A stretch of DNA of 64,000 nucleotides, taken from NCBI GenBank assembly GCA_018714205.1, contig DVNR01000053.1, positions 62,001-126,000 on the forward strand, given 5' to 3'. Position numbers and translations under genes: made by a program. Within the stretch, counting starts at the first letter, position 1, and the number at the start of each line of letters is the position of its first letter. The notes below the pieces were generated by a model. That model saw only the letters and a list, made by a program, of their open reading frames with translations. It ran no database searches and was not told the DNA's origin. Of the stretch, positions 27,811-61,220 are shown one piece after another. This stretch comes from Candidatus Aphodousia faecipullorum (GTDB lineage: Bacteria > Pseudomonadota > Gammaproteobacteria > Burkholderiales > Burkholderiaceae_F).

Positions 27811-29283
27811 ATGCATGTTGCCTCTGTTGATCTTGGCTCAAATAGTTTCCGATTGCAAATCGGTCGTGTTGAAGCGGGGAAAATTATTCCTGTAAATTAC
27901 TTCAAAGATGGGGTAAGAATTGCGGCTGGTTTGGATGAGAAGGGGAACCTTTCCCAGGAAGCTCAGGAACGGGCACTCAAAACGCTTTCTAAATTTAAGG
28001 CGCTTTTAGTCGGCTTTCCAACTAGTCACGTGAGAGCGGTTGGAACTCAAACTCTTCGGGTGGCTAAAAACGCACCGGAATTTATTGAGAAAGCGCAGAA
28101 AGCACTTGGCTATCCCATAGAAGTTTTAAGAGGCAATGAAGAAGCCCGGTTAATTTTTGTAGGCTGTTCTCACGCCTTGCCACCATCCAGAGCTCGCCGC
28201 CTATTTGTCGATATTGGTGGTGCCTCAACCGAACTCTCCGTTGGTCAAGGCTACCAAGCTCAAATTTGTAGTTCTTTTCATATTGGATGTGTGAGTTTGA
28301 CCTTGGCTTATTTTGCCGACGGAGTGATTACAAAAAGTCGCTTTGAAGCTGCTCAACTTGCAGCCTATTCGCAGTTGATTGAGGCCAGAAAAGTTTTCAG
28401 TGCCCCTCAAATTTGGGATGAAGCGTACGGATCTTCAGGTTCTATGGAGGCTGTTTGTTCCATTGCTCGCATACTTGGTCTCGGTGATGGTGGTATCTCA
28501 CAACATGACTTAGTTCAAATTCGAGACTACTTTATTCGTTGTGGGGAAATAAACAAATTGCAACTTGAAGATCTCCATCAATCCAGAAGGGATGTGATTG
28601 CTGGAGGACTTGCCGTCTTGTGCGCAGTCTTTGATGCTCTTGGCATTGAGCGAATGGCTTTTTCTTCCGGAGCTTTGCGCATGGGGGTACTCTATGACTT
28701 GCAAGATAAACTCAACAATAACGATTGCAGAACACAAAGCATTGATCGTCTGTTGTCTTTTGTTCAATGGGACCGTGAACAAACCGCAAGAGTTGACTTA
28801 TTAAGCTCGATGCTCATGTGTTCCCTTGTGCCCGATGGACTGGATGAAGAAAAAAAATGTCTTCACTGGGCTGCGCAATTGCACGAAATTGGAACGAATA
28901 TCAGCCATAATGGATTTCATCGCCACGGCGCTTATATTGTTGAGCATGCCGATCTTGTTGGTTTTTCAGCTTCCACTCAATGCTGGATCGCAGATTTGAT
29001 TTTGGCACAACGCGGAGCACTGCAAGAGTTCAATGAGCAAATGAGAGATTCCGCTTGGACATTGTCGTTGCTTTGTCTACGCCTAGCATGCATCTTTGCT
29101 CAAGAACGAACAAGTGCTAGATTACCTGAACTACAACTCCTGTCCTTGGGAGCAAGACACTTTGAGCTTCGAATCAAGTCAACGGGCTGGTTAGAAACAC
29201 ATCCTTTAATAAAATTCCTATTAGATGGTGAAGTAAAGCACTGGAAAGCCGTACAATATACTTTTGATTTTTGCTATTGCTGA
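27811..29283 (+). CDS. ppx: Ppx/GppA phosphatase family protein (exopolyphosphatase)
   Basis: MHVASVDLGSNSFRLQIGRV, FVDIGGASTELSVG; ATG at 27811. Confidence 0.9.
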   Translation: MHVASVDLGSNSFRLQIGRVEAGKIIPVNYFKDGVRIAAGLDEKGNLSQEAQERALKTLSKFKALLVGFPTSHVRAVGTQTLRVAKNAPEFIEKAQKALGYPIEVLRGNEEARLIFVGCSHALPPSRARRLFVDIGGASTELSVGQGYQAQICSSFHIGCVSLTLAYFADGVITKSRFEAAQLAAYSQLIEARKVFSAPQIWDEAYGSSGSMEAVCSIARILGLGDGGISQHDLVQIRDYFIRCGEINKLQLEDLHQSRRDVIAGGLAVLCAVFDALGIERMAFSSGALRMGVLYDLQDKLNNNDCRTQSIDRLLSFVQWDREQTARVDLLSSMLMCSLVPDGLDEEKKCLHWAAQLHEIGTNISHNGFHRHGAYIVEHADLVGFSASTQCWIADLILAQRGALQEFNEQMRDSAWTLSLLCLRLACIFAQERTSARLPELQLLSLGARHFELRIKSTGWLETHPLIKFLLDGEVKHWKAVQYTFDFCYC

Positions 29284-29294
29284 TTCGTTTATCA

Positions 29295-29981
29295 ATGTCA
29301 AATCCCATTGCTACCCAAGACAACCCCCTCGTGGAATTAGCGCATGTCTTCATGGATTTTGATGACATGCAAGTGTTGCGCGATGTTTCTGTCAAAATTT
29401 ATCGGGGTGAGTTTGTCGTCTTACATGGTGACACTGGGTGTGGTAAATCGACCGTTTTACGATTGATTGCCGGCTTGCTTAATCCTTCACGCGGAGCCGT
29501 TCGAGTCGCTGGCGAGGATGTTCAGAATTTTTCAATTCTTCAAAGGCGCTGGCTTCGTCGTGCGATTGGTCTAATGATGCAAGACTCCCCACTTCTGCCA
29601 GATCGTTCGATTTTGGAGAATGTTATGTTACCTGCGCTTGCAGCGGAAGCCACCACCGCTCAAGCTCGGCAACAAGCACTTGCCGCACTGTCACGTTGCC
29701 ATGTTTCCGAATTAGCCTATGCAATGCCAATTGACCTCTCTTCTGGACAACGACAACAGGTCAGTCTCGCAAGGGCCGTGGTTAATTTACCTGTTTTGAT
29801 CTTAGCTGATGAACCGGCGGCTCATTTAGATGCCAACAACGCCCAAACGCTTATTAACCTGCTTGGCGAATTCTCTAGCGCTGGAGTAACTGTCATTGTG
29901 GCTTCTCACCTTTTACTCACCCCCTACGGTATTCCTTACCGTGAGGTCCGTTTTGCTTCTCAACATGGGGCTCTGAGATGA
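29295..29981 (+). CDS. ftsE: Cell division ATP-binding protein FtsE
   Basis: HGDTGCGKSTVLRLIAGL, LSSGQRQQVSLARAV, LADEPAAHLD; followed by ftsX. Confidence 0.9.
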   Translation: MSNPIATQDNPLVELAHVFMDFDDMQVLRDVSVKIYRGEFVVLHGDTGCGKSTVLRLIAGLLNPSRGAVRVAGEDVQNFSILQRRWLRRAIGLMMQDSPLLPDRSILENVMLPALAAEATTAQARQQALAALSRCHVSELAYAMPIDLSSGQRQQVSLARAVVNLPVLILADEPAAHLDANNAQTLINLLGEFSSAGVTVIVASHLLLTPYGIPYREVRFASQHGALR

Positions 29982-30889
29982 GTTTTTTATCGTCTCGCGC
30001 ATGGGCGCTGCAACAAGTTTTACGTGGCATTAACAATGCAAAAGGGTTGTTTTTCCTTGCGCTGGCACTTGCTAGCCTCTCCTTAACCATCCCTGTTTTT
30101 GTTGCAAGTATTGTTTATGGTCTTTCCGAACCATTGCGATCGGTTCCCGTATCGCCAGAGGTCACCGTCTTTACCGATGAAGGCATTACGAAAAGTCAAA
30201 TGACCAACCTCGAAGCTCGAATTGGTCGTCATGAGCATGTCATGAAAATCACGACGATTCCCAAAGAGGAAGCCTTCAAAGCACTTAACGAAAATTTAGG
30301 AATCAAAACAAACAACAATGATAAAGCGGCCAACCCCCTGCCAGACTTGATCATCGTAACCTTGGACCAAAATATGGCGCCCGAGGACATTGAAAAAACT
30401 GCCAAGAATATTGAGAAACTCTCGGGCGTTGACATGGTCGCCTACGACAGTACTTGGTTAACAAAATTAAACGCAATTTCCGACGCATTAGTTAATCTCG
30501 GTGTTATATTTACGATCATTACTCTGATGTTGCTGGTCTGTGTGATCACCGCGAGCGTGCGACTTGCCACGGATGCTCAGAAAAACGAATTGAGTATGCT
30601 GTATTTGTTCGGCGCCTCGGCCTCTTTTTCTATTCGTCCTTATGCGTGGCGTGGATTTCTAACAATGGGATTGGCGGCAATCGTTGCCCTTGGTTTGTCA
30701 CGCTTTGCGACTGGATTTCTAAATGAGGCTTTGCAAAGTGTTGGGGATCAATACGGCACTTCCATTGTGATTTCCGCCCTGCCTTGGGAATTCAATGCAG
30801 GCTTTATTGTATTTTGTGCACTTTTGGGCGGTTTGATCGCCAGTATCATTACTCAACGAGCTATAGCAAAAATCGAACGTATCGATTAG
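29978..30889 (+). CDS. ftsX: Cell division protein FtsX (permease-like)
   Basis: Four TM segments; overlaps ftsE stop by 4 nt. Confidence 0.9.
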   Translation: MSFLSSRAWALQQVLRGINNAKGLFFLALALASLSLTIPVFVASIVYGLSEPLRSVPVSPEVTVFTDEGITKSQMTNLEARIGRHEHVMKITTIPKEEAFKALNENLGIKTNNNDKAANPLPDLIIVTLDQNMAPEDIEKTAKNIEKLSGVDMVAYDSTWLTKLNAISDALVNLGVIFTIITLMLLVCVITASVRLATDAQKNELSMLYLFGASASFSIRPYAWRGFLTMGLAAIVALGLSRFATGFLNEALQSVGDQYGTSIVISALPWEFNAGFIVFCALLGGLIASIITQRAIAKIERID

Positions 30890-36223: not shown

Positions 36224-36973
36224 ATGTTTAAGCTCGTTTTAATGCGTCACGGCGAAAGCCAATGGAATTTGGAAAACCGCTTCACCGGTTGGACCGATGT
36301 CGACTTGACAGAAAAAGGCCGAGAAGAGGCTCGAAAAGCAGGCGAATTGCTCAAAAAAGAGGGGTTTCAATTCGATCTTTGCTACACCAGCGTGTTGCGT
36401 CGAGCTATTCACACGCTTTGGATTGCTTTGGATGCAATGGATTGCCCATATCTACCTATCAAAAATTCTTGGCGTCTCAACGAACGCCATTACGGGGCGC
36501 TGCAAGGTCTTAACAAGGCTGAAACTGCTGCAAAATATGGTGACGAACAGGTATTGATTTGGCGTCGCGCTTACGCAATCCCGCCCAATCCGCTCTCTCC
36601 TGACGATGAACGCTGGGCAGGCAAGGACAGTCGCTACGCAGACTTAAAGCCAGAGGAAATCCCTGCCACAGAGTGTTTGAAAGATACTGTTGCTCGCGTT
36701 ATTCCTTACTGGAAGGAAGAAATTGAACCAACCATCCGCGCAGGCAAACGCGTGTTAATTGCTGCGCACGGCAACTCCCTTCGGGCTTTGATCAAATACA
36801 TTGATAACATGAGCGACGAGGAGATTGTTCACTTGAACATCCCCACCGCTCGCCCGCTCGTCTATGAATTTGACGACGATATGAATCCCATTCGCCATTA
36901 CTATCTCGGCAATCAAGCTGAGATTGAGGCCGCAATGGCAGCAGTTGCCGCTCAAGGCAAAGCGAAAAAGTGA
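36224..36973 (+). CDS. gpmA: 2,3-bisphosphoglycerate-dependent phosphoglycerate mutase
   Basis: [29 protein letters not shown]. Confidence 0.97.
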
Positions 36974-38391
36974 TCCGAAAGCGTTGTCTTTTTTCTTTTA
37001 CTAAAGCGCTTGGCGTTGCCGGCGCTTTAGTCAGTTTGGCTCTAGCCCCTGCGGGAGGTGATTGGCTGGTCCCGCAGGTTTTTGCTGCCCAGTCAAATGC
37101 TCAAACAGCAAAAAAAACAACGCAAACTAAAAAGACTTCAACAAAAAAAGCGACAACAAAAAGTCGCACAACCAATCGGACGACTAAATCCACAGCGGCC
37201 ACCCAGAAAAAAAAGAGCGATGAAGTCAGCGTTAAACGGCGCAATGAATTACAAAATCAGCAAAAGTCCCTTCAAGAGCAATTAGGCTCGCTTAAAAAGC
37301 AGCTTTCCGAAGCGGAAGCGAGCCAGAACGAGGCCAGCGATGCGCTACGAGCCAGTGAAGAGGCCATCTCTAAAGCGAACCGACGCTTAAGAGATTTAGG
37401 CAACGAGCGAGCTCGTGTGGAAAAGCAACTCCGCGCGTTGCGCGAGCAAGAACTTGCGGTCAGCGGGGAGCTCACCAGTGCTGAAAAACAAAGTCGAGCC
37501 ATTGCTCGCGCCCAATACCTCAACACGCGCCGGCAATCCTGGCAAACGTTAGTTGCAGGCGTTAATCCTCATGTCGTAGCACGCGATGCTGCCTCCTTAA
37601 AATACTTTGCTCAGGCACAAGAGAAAACCGTCCACCAACTTTCCGAAGAGCAAGCGAGTATTCACAGTGTGTCTGAGCAGACAAAGAGCAAACGCAAAGA
37701 GCTCTCCGAGATCGCCGCAAACGAGGAAAAAGGCAGAGCTCAGCTTGTCAAAGAACAAGCCGCCCGCAAAGAAACATTATCAAGACTACAAAAACAAATT
37801 TCTGAACAAAGAGCCTCTATTGACAAACTCGAAAGAGACCAAGCTCGTTTGGGCGAATTGGTTGCTAACATTGACAAAGTGTTGGCTCAGCGCAAGGCGG
37901 AGGCTGAGCGTCGTGCCCAACAAGCACGACGTAATCAACCCGCCAGTGGCAAGGTCTCTGTCGGAGGCAAAGTGCCTAGTGGCACTTTTGCTAAACAAAA
38001 AGGACGACTCGTCATGCCGGCACTCGGCAAAATTACAGGTCGCTATGGGCGGGCTCGGGCCAACGTTTCCGGCAAGAGCACGACCTGGCGAGGTCTTATG
38101 ATTCAAGCTCGACAAGGTTCAGACGTTTTAGCTTGCGCCAGCGGACAAGTCGTTTTTTCTGATTGGCTTCGTGGCTTTGGCAACTTAATCATTGTGGACC
38201 ATGGCGACGGATATCTATCGATTTACGCAAATAACGAATCGCTCTTTAAGAGCGTAGGTGACAAAGTCAACCGTGGTGAAACCATTGCCTCGGTAGGCAA
38301 TACCGGAGGCGAAGAAAAACCAGGCTTGTATTTTGAACTTCGCCGAAACGGACAACCATTCGATCCATTGCCTTGGATCGGGAAAGAATAA
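36970..38391 (+). CDS. envC: EnvC-like murein hydrolase activator (degenerate LytM/M23 domain, coiled coil)
   Basis: Signal peptide, coiled coil, C-terminal M23 fold with missing catalytic His/Asp; after gpmA, before ctpA. Confidence 0.88.
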
Positions 38392-39888: not shown

Positions 39889-41016
39889 ATGCAACAGCTC
39901 TTAATTCATGTGATCCCTTTGTTTTTCGCCCTTTATGCCTACATCAGCATTTTCGGCAAATCCCACCTGCACTGGGTCATCAAGGGGATCGCATTGCTGT
40001 TCATTTTCTTTGCAAGCCAATATCCCGCATTTTGTCGATCCTTTTTTGCCGGACATGACGATGCAATACCCTACTTAGGCATTATTCTTTGGAGCTGGCT
40101 CTTTGCTTCTCAACTTTTACTGATTATCTTTGCCTTCCTCAAGGATATTGTTTTCTGTATCTTTAACCTCGCAGGGCGCCCTATCCTTGTATCAAAAACA
40201 AATTTGGCTTTTGTCATTGGAACTTTTTGCATGATCTTGGGTGCCTATGGGTCTTTTTGCGCACTAAAGCAACCGCAAATACGACATGTCACCGTTGAAA
40301 TTGAAAATTTACCACCTGCCTTTAACGGTTTCACCATTGCCCAATTATCAGACTTGCACATTAGCGCGCTGTTGGAGAGGTCCCGTTTAGAGAAAATTAT
40401 TCAAAGCACCCTAGCTCTAAAGCCAGATTTGATTGCTGTGACGGGAGATATTGTCGACGGACGAGTAGACGTCCGTAAGCAAGATGTGACGCCTTTGTCG
40501 AAGTTGCACGCTCCATATGGGGTATTCGCCGTTGAAGGTAATCACGATCATTATGTGGATTATGACGGATGGATGCGGTTTTTACCCACTCTTGGCATTG
40601 CCGTTTTACATAATAGCCATCAACTTATTACTCGTAACGGGCAATCAATAGCCATAGCGGGCGTCAATGATCCAATGGCCAAACGTTACCATAGAGAACT
40701 TCCCAACATCGAAAAAGCGCTGAGCGGCTTGCCAAAGGAGATGCCTGTCGTCCTATTGTCCCATCAAATAAAAAATAGCCGTGATTATGCCCGCCATGGA
40801 GTTGCTCTTCAACTATCTGGCCACACTCACGGTGGACAAATTTTTGGCATGCATTGGTTAGCTCAAGCCCTTAACGACGGTTTTGTAAAGGGAAAATACG
40901 ATGTTGACGGAATGACGCTTTACGTCAATCGTGGAACCGGTCTTTGGTATGGATTCCCAATACGAATCGGCATTTTTGGAGAAATTACACTGTTCACTCT
41001 ACACAAGCCGTCCTAG
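39889..41016 (+). CDS. Membrane-anchored metallophosphoesterase (YaeI/YkuE type)
   Basis: AQLSDLHISA, VTGDIVDG, VEGNHDHY, LSGHTHGGQIFG. Confidence 0.92.
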   Translation: MQQLLIHVIPLFFALYAYISIFGKSHLHWVIKGIALLFIFFASQYPAFCRSFFAGHDDAIPYLGIILWSWLFASQLLLIIFAFLKDIVFCIFNLAGRPILVSKTNLAFVIGTFCMILGAYGSFCALKQPQIRHVTVEIENLPPAFNGFTIAQLSDLHISALLERSRLEKIIQSTLALKPDLIAVTGDIVDGRVDVRKQDVTPLSKLHAPYGVFAVEGNHDHYVDYDGWMRFLPTLGIAVLHNSHQLITRNGQSIAIAGVNDPMAKRYHRELPNIEKALSGLPKEMPVVLLSHQIKNSRDYARHGVALQLSGHTHGGQIFGMHWLAQALNDGFVKGKYDVDGMTLYVNRGTGLWYGFPIRIGIFGEITLFTLHKPS

Positions 41017-41111
41017 CTGGCAGAAACGTCATGTTGTTTTTCACGTGCCGTAGTGTTTAAAAGCGACTAAGATGATAGTCAGTAGACATCCGTTTTTATA
41101 AGGATCGTATT

Positions 41112-42035
41112 ATGCTAGATAAGAAGAACTTTCGTTACTCTGCCGCCATTGAAGCCTTGATGGAAAAGCACACAACCGAAGGTAGCGACAGCATGTGGAG
41201 TGTTTGGCGTGACCGTCAGATTAACCGCAACAGCAACGGGGGCAATTATTCTTTTGTCCTTGGACGTAACGATGATAAAGATTCGTTGGTCTATCTTAAT
41301 TTCGAAACCGCATTTGAGGGACAAGCCCGCCATGCTCCCTACACATTGATAACCGGCATGACTGGCTCCGGCAAGAGCTCTTTCATTCGTAACCTTATTT
41401 TGGATATCGCAATTACCAATCGTCCCGATTTGGCTGCCATTAAAGTGTTCGATCCTAACGGTGGCTGGGCGTTTGAAAGTTTGAAGGGCTTACACCGTTT
41501 ACGCGTGGAAACGAATATTGAAACAGCTAAAAGCTATCTTGATAGCATAGTGAAATCCATCGAAGCTCACGAGAAGCTATTCGAAACATTAGGTGTGAAA
41601 AGCTTAGAAGAGTGCAATAAAGTACTTGGTTTAAAAAAACGCCTATTGCGCACTTTCGTTATCATCGATGAAATCGCTGTTTGGCTTATCGACGATGACT
41701 TTAAAGAAAAACTCCTTAACGCACTCAAAGCGATTTCAACTAAAGGTTGGAGCACTGGCTATCACCTCATTTTAGCGACACAATGGCCGGATCCGAGAGT
41801 CTTGCCTGAAGAGGTTAAACAATATTTTGGAAACCGAATTTCATTAAAATTGCCGACAGCTGAAATGTCAGAGTATGCCCTTGGAATCAAAGGGGCTGAA
41901 TCACTAACAGAACTCGGGCATATGCTGATGGTTCTTGCCGGAGAAGCTCAACCAATCCATTGCTGGGTGCCTTGGCTATCCGATGAGGATGCAGAACGGA
42001 TGGTAACAGCAATCCGCGTTGCCGAAGATCGATAA
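41112..42035 (+). CDS. Stand-alone FtsK/SpoIIIE-type DNA translocase ATPase domain protein
   Basis: Walker A ITGMTGSGKSSF, Walker B TFVIIDEIAVWL, LILATQWPDPRVLPEEVKQYFGNRISLKLP, GAESLTELGHML; no TM segments. Confidence 0.88.
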   Translation: MLDKKNFRYSAAIEALMEKHTTEGSDSMWSVWRDRQINRNSNGGNYSFVLGRNDDKDSLVYLNFETAFEGQARHAPYTLITGMTGSGKSSFIRNLILDIAITNRPDLAAIKVFDPNGGWAFESLKGLHRLRVETNIETAKSYLDSIVKSIEAHEKLFETLGVKSLEECNKVLGLKKRLLRTFVIIDEIAVWLIDDDFKEKLLNALKAISTKGWSTGYHLILATQWPDPRVLPEEVKQYFGNRISLKLPTAEMSEYALGIKGAESLTELGHMLMVLAGEAQPIHCWVPWLSDEDAERMVTAIRVAEDR

Positions 42036-42044
42036 CAAGAATTC

Positions 42045-42072
42045 AGAGCGCCTCATTCAGGCGCTCTTTTAA
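42045..42072 (+). terminator. Intrinsic terminator after FtsK-like gene
   Basis: AGAGCGCCT-CATTC-AGGCGCTCT then TTTAAA. Confidence 0.75.
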
Positions 42073-42075
42073 ACG

Positions 42076-42837
42076 ATGAGCGACTTTAAGTTTTATCACC
42101 CATCAGGAAGAATCTATCGTCCAAAGCTTTGGCTGATTGACCTGGATGACACTTTATATTCTGCATCCGCAGGAATGTTTCACGACATTCACGTGTTGAT
42201 GGACGACTATATCCAGAGCGCTCTGGGAGTTAGCTCTCAGACGGCAAATCTGTTACGAAAAGAATACTGGCAACGATATGGAGTCACCTTCTTAGGATTA
42301 TGGTTACACCACGGCATTGATCCTGTTGACTTTTTGACAAAAACACACAATGTCGACATTTCCAGTGTGAAAACTCGTGGTTTGATGCGTCAATCACTCG
42401 TGTCTTTACCTGGCAAAAAGGTCCTTTTTACAAATGCTCCCAATCACTTCGCAGAGCGAATTTTAAAAAAAATCAATTTGCGCGGTGTCTTTCAAGCAAA
42501 GTATTGTGTCAACGACATGAAAGTATTCGGACGGTGGTGCCCCAAGCCATCAGCGGCAATGTTGCAGAAAGTTTTAACAAATCACGGCATCCGACCTACC
42601 GAGGCATGCTTGATTGACGATAACCTTTGCAATTTAAAAGTTGCCCATCAACTGGGGTTACAAACCGTCTTGTGCAAAGGATGGCATCATCACGGCACGG
42701 AAATCGTGAAACCTATTAACTATGTTGATGCCCAAATTTCGCATCTTCGCGATATCCCAAAAGTTTTAACACGTCGTCAGGAATCGAAAAACAATAAACG
42801 TCTACGTAAGCTGCCAATGCAGAATCCTTACGACTAA
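42076..42837 (+). CDS. HAD-superfamily pyrimidine 5'-nucleotidase-like protein
   Basis: LWLIDLDDTLYSAS, VLFTNAPNHFAERIL, ACLIDDNLCNLKVAHQLGLQTV. Confidence 0.88.
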   Translation: MSDFKFYHPSGRIYRPKLWLIDLDDTLYSASAGMFHDIHVLMDDYIQSALGVSSQTANLLRKEYWQRYGVTFLGLWLHHGIDPVDFLTKTHNVDISSVKTRGLMRQSLVSLPGKKVLFTNAPNHFAERILKKINLRGVFQAKYCVNDMKVFGRWCPKPSAAMLQKVLTNHGIRPTEACLIDDNLCNLKVAHQLGLQTVLCKGWHHHGTEIVKPINYVDAQISHLRDIPKVLTRRQESKNNKRLRKLPMQNPYD

Positions 42838-45353: not shown

Positions 45354-46358
45354 TTACGGAGCGTCTACGAGACAGGTCTCCAAACCTGTGATAATGGCAC
45401 TTTCCGGTAGATTGCGTCCAATGAACACAATCTTGCTCATCGGACGTTCTCCCTCGGCCCATTTTGGTCCTAAATCTGCCGCAACTAACATGTGCACTCC
45501 CTGTGTAATCATCTTATGATCGGTCCCTTGCAAGTAAAGGACCCCTTTATAGCGCAACAAATCGGGCCCATAGACCTGAGTGATTGTTCCCCAAAAGCGC
45601 TCGAGACGGAACGGGTCAAACGGTGTATACGATGTAAAGACAAAGGAGCCAATTTCATCACCATGATGGTGATGGTGACCAACGTCGACCAAAAACTCCG
45701 GATCAATATCCAAGACGGTATTGAGGTTGAAACCCTCAATATTGAGAACCTTGTCTACAGCGACCTCGCCCATATGAACATTCTCAATCGGCGCCCTTGG
45801 GTTCATCCGGCGCAAGCGCGCACGAATATCCGCCGCTTCCTGTTCAGTGACCAAATCCGTTTTGGTCAGGAAAATCCGATCTGCAAAACCAACCTGGGCC
45901 TGGGCTTCTGCTTCTTTATCAAGCGTTTCGTTGCCGTGTTTGGCATCAACAACGGTAATAACGCCATCCAAGCGATAAAAAGCCGCTACGGCGTCATCCA
46001 TGAAAAATGTCTGAGCAACGGGTCCAGGATTCGCAACACCCGTCGTTTCAATCACCACCCAGTCAAACTGAATGCCTCCGCGATCTCGACGGTGCCGCAA
46101 GTCAGTTAACACTCGAGACAAATCGCCTCGGATTGTGCAGCAAATACAGCCGTTGCTCATTTGAACAATCTGCTCTTTATCGGTTTGTACCAATAACGTG
46201 CTATCAACGTCTTCCTCACCGAACTCGTTTTCTATGACAGCAATTTTATGACCGTGCTCTTCACGAAGGATTCGATTTAAAAGTGTGGTTTTTCCTGCGC
46301 CCAGAAAGCCCGTGATGATCGTCACCGGGATTTGAGGCACCATGTCCATTACGTCCAT
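45354..46358 (-). CDS. CobW/ZNG1-family GTP-binding metallochaperone
   Basis: TIITGFLGAGKTTLLNRIL, NGCICCTIRGDL, His-rich VGHHHHHGDEIG; start at 46358 preferred over 46511. Confidence 0.92.
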   Translation of the reverse strand: MDVMDMVPQIPVTIITGFLGAGKTTLLNRILREEHGHKIAVIENEFGEEDVDSTLLVQTDKEQIVQMSNGCICCTIRGDLSRVLTDLRHRRDRGGIQFDWVVIETTGVANPGPVAQTFFMDDAVAAFYRLDGVITVVDAKHGNETLDKEAEAQAQVGFADRIFLTKTDLVTEQEAADIRARLRRMNPRAPIENVHMGEVAVDKVLNIEGFNLNTVLDIDPEFLVDVGHHHHHGDEIGSFVFTSYTPFDPFRLERFWGTITQVYGPDLLRYKGVLYLQGTDHKMITQGVHMLVAADLGPKWAEGERPMSKIVFIGRNLPESAIITGLETCLVDAP

Positions 46359-46411
46359 TCCTATTCTCCCAGAATAGGCTTCAACATTGAGAAGCCTTGA
46401 ATTGTGTCCAA

Positions 46412-47617
46412 TTAACGAAGGGTTAATTGTAGTCCTTTCAAATACTCTCCTTCTGGGCATGTCATCATCAATGGATGATCTTCGCCGGCACCCAACCTTG
46501 TGATCATCCAAGCTTCTCGCTTCGAATCAATGACTGCACCAGCGATCACTTTTTGGAAAAGATCGACATCCATTGCTCCAGAACAGGAAAAGGTCAATAA
46601 ATCGCCTCCCTCTTTTACCAACCGCAGCCCATTCAAATTGATATCTTTATAGGCACGTGATGCGCGGTCGATATGGCGATGATTTGAAGCAAATTTAGGA
46701 GGGTCGAGAATAACAAGGTCGAATTGCTCCCCCTGATCTCGAGCCTGGCGAAGATAATCAAACACATCCGCTTGTAACCACTGAGCTCGATCCGCAGAGA
46801 AACCGTTTCGTTCAGCATTGCGTTTGGCCATCGCTAAAGCGTCTGCTGAAGAATCAACAGAAATGACTTCCTCCGCACCCCCTGCCAATAACGCTAAAGA
46901 AAATCCACCGGTGTAGCAAAAACAATTCAATGCACGCATTCCACGACCGTGAAGAGCTCTAAATTGTTCGGCAAGCCGTTGTGCCAATAAACGGTTTTCG
47001 CGTTGATCAATATAAAAACCCGTTTTATGACCATGTCGAACGTCGACACCGTAGCGAACTCTATCTTCCACAATTTCAATTTCTTGGGGAGGTTCCAATC
47101 CACGTAGAACCCCAACAATTTCATTCAACCCCTCTCGATGTCGGGTCGCCGCGTCAGAACGTTCATAAATACCCTGAACATCGCAATGCCTCATTAGAAT
47201 ATCGGCAATATCATCTTTCCAAGCTTCAACCCCTGCGGCTTGGAACTGGGCGACAAGCCAATTATCGTATTGATCGACAACAAGTCCCGGCAACTGATCA
47301 GCTTCGCCAAAAATTACACGCACGGCACTAGTTCGAGAAAACAAACGCTTGCGAGCGCGCAAGGCTTTTGCAATTTTTTCTTCGAACCAAGCCTTATTGA
47401 TGCAATCAGACTCAATAAAGGACCAACAACGCGCTCGAATTGTGGACTCCTGAGAATAGGCAGCCCATGCGAGAAAACGTCCATCGTTGGACACCACACG
47501 AACCGTCTCACCCAATCCAGGTTTTCCCATGACTTTCTGCACAGCTGTGTCATACACCCATGGATGTCTGCGTAAAAGAGACCGCTCTTTGCCTTTTTTC
47601 AAAACCAAATCAATCAA
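46412..47617 (-). CDS. Class I SAM-dependent rRNA methyltransferase (RlmI-like, PUA + MTase)
   Basis: RRHPWVYDTAV, LNCFCYTGGFSLALLAGGAEEVISVDSS, DLVILDPPKFA. Confidence 0.92.
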   Translation of the reverse strand: MIDLVLKKGKERSLLRRHPWVYDTAVQKVMGKPGLGETVRVVSNDGRFLAWAAYSQESTIRARCWSFIESDCINKAWFEEKIAKALRARKRLFSRTSAVRVIFGEADQLPGLVVDQYDNWLVAQFQAAGVEAWKDDIADILMRHCDVQGIYERSDAATRHREGLNEIVGVLRGLEPPQEIEIVEDRVRYGVDVRHGHKTGFYIDQRENRLLAQRLAEQFRALHGRGMRALNCFCYTGGFSLALLAGGAEEVISVDSSADALAMAKRNAERNGFSADRAQWLQADVFDYLRQARDQGEQFDLVILDPPKFASNHRHIDRASRAYKDINLNGLRLVKEGGDLLTFSCSGAMDVDLFQKVIAGAVIDSKREAWMITRLGAGEDHPLMMTCPEGEYLKGLQLTLR

Positions 47618-58002: not shown

Positions 58003-58870
58003 AAAAAACATTGTTCTCACTCCCCAATTGCCTCAAAAGGCTGGAAATCAGTCACAGGAGGTTAAAAACAAAAAATCGGTCTCTGAAAAGAAAAACGAAA
58101 AACGAATTATGCGGCTTGCCGGTAAAGCTGTTGCTGATTTTTCCATGATCGAAGGAGGAGATAAGATCATGGTCTGCATGTCTGGCGGCAAAGATAGCTA
58201 CGTTCTATTGGATGTCCTCATGAAACTTCAGAAACGAGCTCCAGTTCCTTTTGAACTTATTGCCGTACATGTCGATCAGCATCTGCCGAATTTTCCAAAA
58301 GAAGTTATTCCGAACTATTTAAAACAAATCGGCGTTCCTTTCCACATCGAAGATCAAGACACCTGGTCCATCGTACAGCGGGTTATTCCAGAAGGACAAA
58401 ACGTTTGTTCAGTTTGCTCTAGACTTCGCAGAGGGATCATCTATCGAGTCGCCAAAGAATTGGGAGTAACCAAAATCGCTCTCGGTCATCACATGGATGA
58501 CGCTGTCAGTACCCTTTTACTCAACATGTTTTATGGTGGAAGGCTAAAGGGGATGCCCCCCATTCTACGCAGTGATGACGGAGCCAACATCGTCATTCGC
58601 CCATTGATTTACGTTCGCGAATACGAAATTGAACGATGGGTGAAATACCACCACTATCCGATTATCTCAAAGGAGATCTGCCGAAAAATTGAAAATAAAA
58701 AGAGAGCGGAAATGAAAATGTTGATTCGTGAATGGGACACTCATTTTGACAGCCGTACCTATAACGTTCTAATGAGTATGACACGAGTGTCTCCTTCACA
58801 CCTTATGGATCCGAGCATTTATGATTTTAAGAAGATGCCAAAAGATCCCCTAAAAAAATCCTTAATCTGA
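57995..58870 (+). CDS. ttcA: tRNA 2-thiocytidine(32) synthetase TtcA
   Basis: [17 protein letters not shown]-loop, [10 protein letters not shown]. Confidence 0.96.
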
Positions 58871-59776
58871 CTTCGCTCCCTTTTGTTGCATAAGCCAGTG
58901 ATAGAGGTAGTCACGTTTCAATTCAGTGATCTTGGCACCAATAGCCGCCGCTTTTGAAAGCGGCATTTGTTGAGCCAAAGCTAATAACCAGGCCCGATCC
59001 TTAGCCGTCAACTCAATTTCACTTTGCTCCGGTTCAGCATCAACCAAGATCACGTACTCACCCCGAGCTTCATGCCCGTTTGCCCATTGCTTAACCTCGG
59101 CAGCTGCAAGGGTCGTAAAGGTTTCAAACTTTTTGGTAATTTCCCTAGCAATGACAATCCGTCTTTGAGGGGTTAGACACTCTGCCAAGTCACATAACAG
59201 ATCTTTAACTCGATGAGGAGCTTCATAAAGAACAAATGCTTCTTTTAGCGCACCTAGTTGCTGTAAGGCTTCACGACGAGCTTTCGATTGAGGCGCGACA
59301 AAACCAACAAAATGAAAACCTCCTGGCTCCAAGCCTGCTGCTGATAATGCCGTGACTACAGCACTTGCACCCGGTATCGGAATAACCCGAAAACCAGCCT
59401 GCATCACAGCCCGTACAACTCGGGAGCCTGGGTCAGAAACTGCCGGTGTTCCAGCATCAGTCACCAACATGACTCGCTCGCCCTTTTGTAATCGTTCAAT
59501 TATCATATGGGACTGAGCGACTTCGTTGTGCTCGCGCACGCTGACAGTGGGCACAGAAATCGAAAATCTTTCCAGTATTTTTTTTGTTTCACGTGTATCT
59601 TCGGCTGCGATCACATCGGCTAGGCTAAGCGCCCAAAGAGCCCTTAATGTGATGTCTGCGGCGTTGCCAATTGGCAAACCGATGATATACAGTGACGAAT
59701 CCGGAAAAACCTGTGTATCCAAACCAGCTTTAATCATTAGAGTCTGGTCTGACCATTGTTTTGAAGTGGATGACAT
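58862..59776 (-). CDS. rsmI: 16S rRNA (cytidine(1402)-2'-O)-methyltransferase RsmI
   Basis: [39 protein letters not shown]; start at 59776 (MSSTSKQW). Confidence 0.94.
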
Positions 59777-59777
59777 C

Positions 59778-61220
59778 GTGAATACCCGTTCGTTATTGCA
59801 TGTTCTCAGCGTGGCTATTTTAGCCGCCTTTGGCTCACAAAGCCTCGCACAGTCGGCTGTTTCATTCGGCGTAACCTCGTCTTTTTCAGCAGTTCCAGTC
59901 GTGTCGGCTGAAACTGAAGCTAATGCTACAGAGGTTACGACAAAAGAAGGCGTCGAAACACCGAATGCTCTATCGACACCATCTGTCCAATCCCCCGCCA
60001 CCGCAGGACTTTCCTTGAGTGTTCCCGTTCAGACAGATGCAACAACGTCAACCGCGCAAGCAGTAAACATCCCTAAAATTGCCGTGATTTTACCGCCAGT
60101 AAACAGCCCTTTCGATGGAATTAATGACGCCATCATCAAAGGAATTGAAGCCGCAAACAACAAAGCTGGAACACCAGTCGAAATACTCCCATTGCACCGA
60201 AAAGCTGGACAGAATGCCATGTCTCAGTTGCAAGATGCGGCACTAATGGGTGCTGTTGTCGCTATTGGACCGATGACCCGAGATGAAGTGGCAGAAGTCT
60301 CTCGGTTAAATTTCTTGCCATTACCTGTTGTAGCCCTCAACCGATCAGAACAAACCGGGCTTTCTCCCAAATTAATGATCAATTTCTCGCTGTCTGCAGA
60401 AGAAGAGGCCAAACAAATTGCTCAAATTGCGATTGCCGCCCTTCCCGCGACAAACTCCAAAGGCGAAAAGCCAAAAGTGATCATTTTTGAGGTATCAACT
60501 CCGCTAGAACAACGTATCGCCAATGTTTATGTTCAAGAACTGCAAGCGGCACAGATTCCTTTTGAACGTGTGCAACTAACCCAAGAGTTAATGAACCAAC
60601 CTCGCTTTTACGAAAGCCTTCAATCTGACATAGCGAAACCCAAACTAGAAGCCTTACCGAACAGAAAAGAGGATCCCTACAACTACAATCGTGTTAAAGC
60701 TCGCAATGATCGGCTCATGTCAGAATATCGCGCACAACTCGCTTTTGCCGAACCCCCTTACTTTGCCGCTTTGCTTGCCATGGACTCTCGTACAGCGGCT
60801 TTAGTCACACCGCGCCTGCCAAGGTTGACAAGGGCATGGGGCACAAGCCTTGTAAATCCTGGAGACACTAGCCAAAGTTACATTGCCTCATTAACGTATG
60901 ACCTTCGTAATGTCGGCCTTGTCGAAGCTCCGCTCGTTTTAAACCAATCAGGTGCCACCCCGGCCAATTTGGCGTCCGATACTATCCCCAAAGACGCATT
61001 GGAAAGACGACTGTACGCCTTTGGTACCGACGCGTTTCGCTTAGCAACCCAGTGGATGCACTGGCAGAAACAAATTGAATTTAACGGAGACACTGGCAAA
61101 CTCTACTTAAATGCTGACGCAAGCGCGGAAGTTGTTCGTCATGCGCAGCCAGCCATCATCGAGCCAAACAAGATCCGAGCCATTTCGGCACAAAAGCTAA
61201 TTGAACCCATTGATCGGTAA
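59778..61220 (+). CDS. LpoA/LppC-like penicillin-binding protein activator (periplasmic)
   Basis: Signal-peptide-like N-terminus MNTRSLLHVLSVAILAAFGSQSLAQ (GTG start); periplasmic-binding-like fold (KIAVILPPVNSPFDGINDAIIKGIEAA). Confidence 0.8.
   Translation: MNTRSLLHVLSVAILAAFGSQSLAQSAVSFGVTSSFSAVPVVSAETEANATEVTTKEGVETPNALSTPSVQSPATAGLSLSVPVQTDATTSTAQAVNIPKIAVILPPVNSPFDGINDAIIKGIEAANNKAGTPVEILPLHRKAGQNAMSQLQDAALMGAVVAIGPMTRDEVAEVSRLNFLPLPVVALNRSEQTGLSPKLMINFSLSAEEEAKQIAQIAIAALPATNSKGEKPKVIIFEVSTPLEQRIANVYVQELQAAQIPFERVQLTQELMNQPRFYESLQSDIAKPKLEALPNRKEDPYNYNRVKARNDRLMSEYRAQLAFAEPPYFAALLAMDSRTAALVTPRLPRLTRAWGTSLVNPGDTSQSYIASLTYDLRNVGLVEAPLVLNQSGATPANLASDTIPKDALERRLYAFGTDAFRLATQWMHWQKQIEFNGDTGKLYLNADASAEVVRHAQPAIIEPNKIRAISAQKLIEPIDR

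Follow-up and report, generated by a model that had tools for sequence, protein, structure and literature searches.

An orphan SspH-type motor domain with altered motor residues is an apparent core gene in Parasutterella secunda, Candidatus Aphodousia and their relatives

The window, by which we mean the whole stretch of 64,000 nucleotides of Candidatus Aphodousia faecipullorum analysed here, carries housekeeping genes around a gene for a stand-alone FtsK-fold ATPase. This raises the question of where such a motor domain came from and whether its product still pumps DNA. The locus presents the following features:

39889-41016, plus strand: neighbouring gene for a membrane metallophosphoesterase (Pfam Metallophos), which adjoins the ATPase gene in all eight relatives while being only 50-67% identical
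41060-41073, plus strand: upstream box AAAnCGAyTAAnAT, about 40 bp 5′ of the start codon, recognisable with small variations in all nine species
41112-42035, plus strand: gene for the stand-alone FtsK-fold (SspH-type) ATPase, assigned from the open reading frame, the Pfam FtsK_SpoIIIE match, orthologues in 9/9 genomes of the genus, trees and a structural model
42045-42072, plus strand: intrinsic terminator hairpin (42045-42067) and T run; the hairpin is found in all nine species, with changed sequence and conserved pairing
42076-42837, plus strand: neighbouring gene for a HAD hydrolase, which pairs with SppA in sister genera devoid of the ATPase gene

The ATPase gene starts with ATG and encodes 307 amino acids (open reading frame list of the window and its translation), and the presence of the same 307-aa product in eight other species indicates that this frame is not due to chance. 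FtsK_SpoIIIE is the only Pfam family detected above its curated cut-off (E=1.6e-16, 60.9 bits, residues 72-252), and no match to FtsK_alpha, FtsK_gamma or transmembrane-domain families was obtained in the 307 residues, which bears out the initial annotation of a stand-alone motor lacking transmembrane and gamma domains. Its proposal that the gene is monocistronic also holds, since the terminator-like hairpin at 42045 and the upstream box, both present in 9/9 species, make the gene its own transcription unit. The box, which is probably part of the promoter of the ATPase gene, occurs a single time in the window; chance also gives about one occurrence if a mismatch is allowed. At positions 41090-41110 and in relatives, about six of the nine species have a small inverted repeat with imperfect pairing, made up of ATCCGTTTTT...AAGGAT; it includes the probable ribosome-binding site, and its predicted folds are weak.

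The genus was sampled by nine genomes of Parasutterella secunda, Ca. Aphodousia and relatives, from animal guts. All nine encode the ATPase with a common start and length, the proteins of the eight relatives being 81-88% identical to that of the window over all 307 residues, without stops, and the gene was detected in 0/58 other genomes of the family. The gene order is PGAM-EnvC-CtpA-metallophosphoesterase-ATPase-HAD-SppA-DksA-CobW-RlmI-HtrB across the relatives, except that PGAM was not found in two of them and that one contig ends after DksA. The stand-alone proteins thus constitute a distinct clade with conserved neighbours, and the direct adjacency of HAD and SppA in sister genera indicates that the ATPase gene arrived or was placed at this locus in the present genus. 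The location outside any division context, as first annotated, stands in the sense that no division gene is adjacent and is weakened by EnvC, three genes upstream, and by FtsE/FtsX-like frames (29271-30889); these frames and the EnvC-like one (36970-38391, M23 peptidase-type), all named by reading their translations, lie 3-12 kb upstream.

In the genus comparison, the mean dN of the ATPase gene is 0.117, versus 0.354 for the metallophosphoesterase, 0.345 for HAD and 0.421 for SppA. It is therefore close to that of CobW and about one third of the values of the flanking genes; lower values were obtained for PGAM, DksA and CobW only. With synonymous sites at saturation (pS ~0.8), the dN/dS ratio was not used. 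Taken together, distribution, synteny and rate indicate that the ATPase gene is a vertically inherited core gene of the genus. Two pairs of frames in the window overlap: the CobW-like frame, as called from a TTG codon, shares 100 bases with the end of the RlmI-like frame (45354-46511 and 46412-47617, minus strand), its true start being probably further in, as the match is shorter in most relatives; and an RsmI-like frame (58862-60001, minus strand) overlaps an LpoA/LppC-like frame (59526-61220, plus strand) in antiparallel orientation by ~475 bases, both being named by reading and both starts being probably over-extended.

Every close homologue of the 307-aa protein corresponds to the C-terminal motor of SspH, a protein of ~1,600-1,860 amino acids that belongs to SspABCD-SspFGH phosphorothioate restriction. 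Identity to SspH motors is about 35-39% (38-39% over residues 25-303 for the nearest ones, up to 205 bits), and identity to FtsK is 25-34%, with 51 bits at best. In a tree of 63 motor domains, the genus and SspH are split from FtsK and other FtsK-like proteins with a support of 100/100; the genus sequences form a single clade (100/100) whose stem is very long (4.9 changes per site) and whose inner branches are short. A second tree recovered the same grouping of the genus with SspH and did not reject SspH as one clade (p-AU 0.31), so that it is compatible with a position of the genus either inside or beside SspH, and a derivation of the orphan domain from SspH is likely rather than proven. In the 63-domain tree, stand-alone FtsK-like proteins of ~480-550 aa from other Proteobacteria (tree rows L060-L062, L064-L066, L068, L069, L076-L080) make up a clade of their own, apart from both FtsK and SspH.

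Two sequence details also point to SspH: a lead-in motif WxVWxRxxINRN (W-x-V-W-x-R-R-x-I-N-R-N) common to the genus protein and one SspH subgroup, and H270, a position occupied by histidine in 16/16 SspH and by aspartate in FtsK and others. The PADLOC SspH profile (PDLC02806) matches the 307-aa protein with 241 bits (profile positions 1489-1766); this match is non-discriminating, as the FtsK of the same genome reaches 226 bits, and the kinship is based here on pairwise identity and the tree.

In wider samples (399 genomes of the phylum, 399 of the order, 369 of the class, and 399 of the order with a wider profile), every match outside the genus with a comparable score was the C-terminus of a 1,784-1,856-aa open frame, and about 1,800 genomes yielded no further stand-alone copy of this type. 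Long proteins likewise end in the nearest plasmid homologues (38-39% identity; six loci opened), and the four SspH-type homologues on viral contigs are each preceded by a long open coding sequence, with no carrier of the short stand-alone form among the viral contigs searched. Literature searches retrieved nothing on this gene.

One SspH locus was examined in full: the long protein matches SspH from end to end (2,385 bits), and matches to SspF, SspG, SspC, SspD and SspB were obtained for its neighbours. In the nine genomes of the genus, which were searched for SspH, SspF and SspC, no match was obtained to SspH profile positions before ~1295, SspF was absent from 9/9 (5/5 positive-control genomes gave matches) and SspC was not found in a search run without positive control. 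No ssp genes flank the ATPase gene at its locus in the genus. The neighbours, together with the lack of SspF and of the SspH N-terminal region in the nine genomes, rule out a remnant of a local ssp operon.

The part of the protein that precedes the motor can be divided as follows:

41112-41189, plus strand: residues 1-26, a short lead helix replacing the FtsK-alpha-like domain of SspH; the SspH alignment begins at residue ~24-28
41190-41291, plus strand: residues 27-60, an SspH-like lead-in (MWSVWRDRQINRN...SFVLGRN) defined by alignment with SspH

The ~60-aa N-terminus was first described as unrecognised, which remains correct for the first ~26 residues, in which the model has a single short helix. 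For residues ~27-60, the counterpart is the SspH segment that precedes Walker A (SLWDVWARREINRN...SFVLG), so that they are, from this alignment, the lead-in of the SspH motor itself. Upstream of its motor, SspH exhibits a weak FtsK_alpha Pfam match, just below the curated cut-off. The AlphaFold model (pLDDT 89.7) corresponds to an FtsK beta domain with an intact fold; among PDB entries it most resembles FtsK motor domains (TM 0.72-0.78 by query length), followed by EccC and TcpA. The alignment used for modelling contained 42 diverse sequences, without plasmid-record rows, and the nine genus sequences alone gave a pLDDT of 39.8. As FtsK and SspH sequences were part of this alignment, such a fold match was to be expected and does not count as an independent argument for kinship.

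Motor residues were compared in 63 sequences (9 from the genus and 54 homologues outside it), with Pseudomonas aeruginosa FtsK numbering set on the 2iuu alignment through the spacing of R632, S634, V635, G640, K643, K657 and R661. The spacing and roles of R620 (arginine finger) and R632 (DNA grip) were taken from PMC7321959; in simulations, D599 holds R632 in the ADP state (PMC9410874).

41355-41381, plus strand: Walker A GMTGSGKSS, residues 82-90, intact; invariant in the genus, with G and K invariant in all homologues
41655-41672, plus strand: Walker B and catalytic glutamate FVIIDE, residues 182-187, intact; E187 in 63/63
41679-41681, plus strand: V190 at the position of FtsK D599, the partner of R632; V in 9/9 of the genus, D in 49/54 homologues
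41748-41750, plus strand: W213 at the position of the arginine finger R620; W in 9/9 of the genus, R in 54/54 homologues
41781-41783, plus strand: phosphosensor Q224, intact; Q in 63/63
41784-41786, plus strand: W225 at the position of R632 in DNA-gripping loop II; W in 9/9 of the genus, R or K in 54/54 homologues

Three further positions that are invariant in the 54 homologues are changed and fixed in the genus, namely K to N116, R to H153 (N116 and H153 in 9/9) and H to Y77. The loop I positions of K657 and R661 are occupied by A, E or S (residue 250) and by E254, and are variable in SspH too. The position of K643 (K, R or V at residue 236) is basic in eight of the nine proteins, the sole one to stay basic among the DNA-grip positions compared (R632, K643, K657 and R661). 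At the position of R548, a proposed second trans-acting residue of FtsK, K163 is found in 9/9; R242 remains basic, and R229 is a new invariant arginine near loop II. All the motif strings quoted in the initial annotation are present in the translation, but the FtsK landmarks are not intact, since ATQWPD and KGWSTG stand where FtsK and SspH have (A/T)QRP(S/D) and KARAAG. The suggestion of a dedicated DNA pump, if taken as an intact one, is not supported, since tryptophans replace the arginine finger and the DNA-grip arginine in all nine species.

The long stem and the altered catalytic and DNA-contact residues, followed by strong constraint, suggest that function changed and was then kept. The reading that we prefer, with about even confidence, is that an orphan SspH-type motor domain became a core gene and was repurposed, probably as an ATP switch or scaffold rather than a processive DNA pump. 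The beta domain alone of such a motor would have become fixed, as a core gene transcribed by itself, in the ancestor shared by the genus, and its function would have changed thereafter. The protein would still bind ATP and may hydrolyse it slowly; the former subunit interface would probably still serve self-association or docking on a partner, and the FtsK-like ring cycling that pumps double-stranded DNA would have ceased. The protein would then act as a switch or scaffold under ATP control, much like those ATPase domains of EccC that are not motors. The sequences establish the SspH kinship, the distribution, the residue changes and the conservation; what is said here on function, oligomeric state, ATP binding and a partner is inferred, the switch or scaffold role being reached by elimination: conserved ATP-site residues combined with the loss of the trans finger and of the DNA-grip switch make it likelier than a DNA pump, an antagonist or a defence ATPase. 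As a caveat, another residue could serve as finger (K163 in 9/9, R242, or residue 236, basic in 8/9).

This caveat leads to the main alternative, possible and yet unlikely in our opinion, that the protein is still a DNA motor, re-engineered as a second small pump in which K163 or R242 makes the trans contact while R229 and K236 grip DNA. The ATP site, catalytic glutamate and sensor glutamine, intact in all nine proteins, are consistent with such a motor, as are the genus-wide invariance of K163 and R229, the predicted fold and the many SspH members that also lack loop I basic residues. However, the finger arginine is universal in the homologue set and has been lost here along with R632 and its partner D599, and the alpha domain, which also grips DNA in FtsK (PMC9410874), is absent.

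A subunit that binds ATP normally but has no finger is classically dominant-negative. Since SspH systems are located on plasmids, such a finger-less and grip-less subunit might join and poison ATPases of the SspH type when phosphorothioate restriction systems come in on mobile elements. We consider this antagonist improbable: identity to SspH motors is in the 35-39% range with many otherwise conserved positions changed, no known pressure would make all species of the genus keep the gene, and SspH was not found in the nine genomes.

The relatives being defence proteins, the ATPase could also function in defence, as first envisaged, here together with partners from other loci of the genome. The mad8 protein of MADS is likewise a short FtsK-like defence ATPase (314-aa profile), which the genus protein matches weakly (51.5 bits, versus 241 bits for the SspH profile); none of mad1-mad8 is at the locus, where the neighbours are core genes. 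Vertical inheritance with conserved synteny in all species, slow evolution among housekeeping genes and the failure to find SspF (with responsive controls) and SspC in the genus make a present role in defence very doubtful. A domesticated conjugation or phage motor had been proposed as well; domestication fits the data, but the nearest relative is the C-terminal motor of a defence protein. Neither orthology to a conjugative element or phage nor a location in one was observed (phage matches below 29% identity, housekeeping window).

Finally, although the protein matches the last ~280 amino acids of SspH, a disrupted ftsK fragment or decaying SspH remnant is hardly credible and is refuted by the conservation data, since start, length and open frame are identical in 9/9 species with low dN. 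Moreover, the genome (1.8 Mb, 84 contigs, 89% complete) encodes its one other FtsK on another contig (C66); this FtsK is complete, its open frame of 842 aa comprising 4TM, alpha, motor and gamma domains, so that the window gene does not replace ftsK and is not a piece of it.

Defence systems are known to acquire FtsK/HerA motors from cellular and mobile elements ('HerA/FtsK capture', PMC10853773). The present case looks like traffic in the reverse direction, from a defence-type motor domain to a slow-evolving core gene in which the two most characteristic motor arginines have become tryptophan. The gene offers a natural test of the capacities of an FtsK fold devoid of its finger, and is a candidate for a genus-specific cell function in culturable gut bacteria.

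Compared with known systems, the genus protein shares the RecA-like beta-domain fold and the ATP-site residues of FtsK/SpoIIIE (PDB 2IUU/2IUS/6T8B), with an identity of only ~24-31%, but lacks their 4TM, alpha and gamma domains and is changed at the positions of R620, R632, D599, K657 and R661. With SspH it shares the lead-in motif, H270 in place of the FtsK aspartate, Walker A and B and the sensor glutamine, whereas SspH has an N-terminal part of ~1,300-1,500 amino acids, an alpha domain and sspF/sspG neighbours, all absent here, and keeps the arginine finger and the R632 position where the genus protein has tryptophan. The EccC/EssC proteins of type VII secretion include FtsK-fold domains that are not DNA motors (ATPases 2 and 3 were solved with a signal peptide, 4N1A); these are tandem domains of large ESX proteins and, unlike in the genus protein, the finger-position arginine is kept in the ATPase1 sequences aligned. 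Tentatively, and with somewhat less than even confidence, the gene may represent a defence motor stripped to its ATP-binding core, without finger and grip, and turned into a core cellular ATP switch with a new partner, outside type VII secretion.
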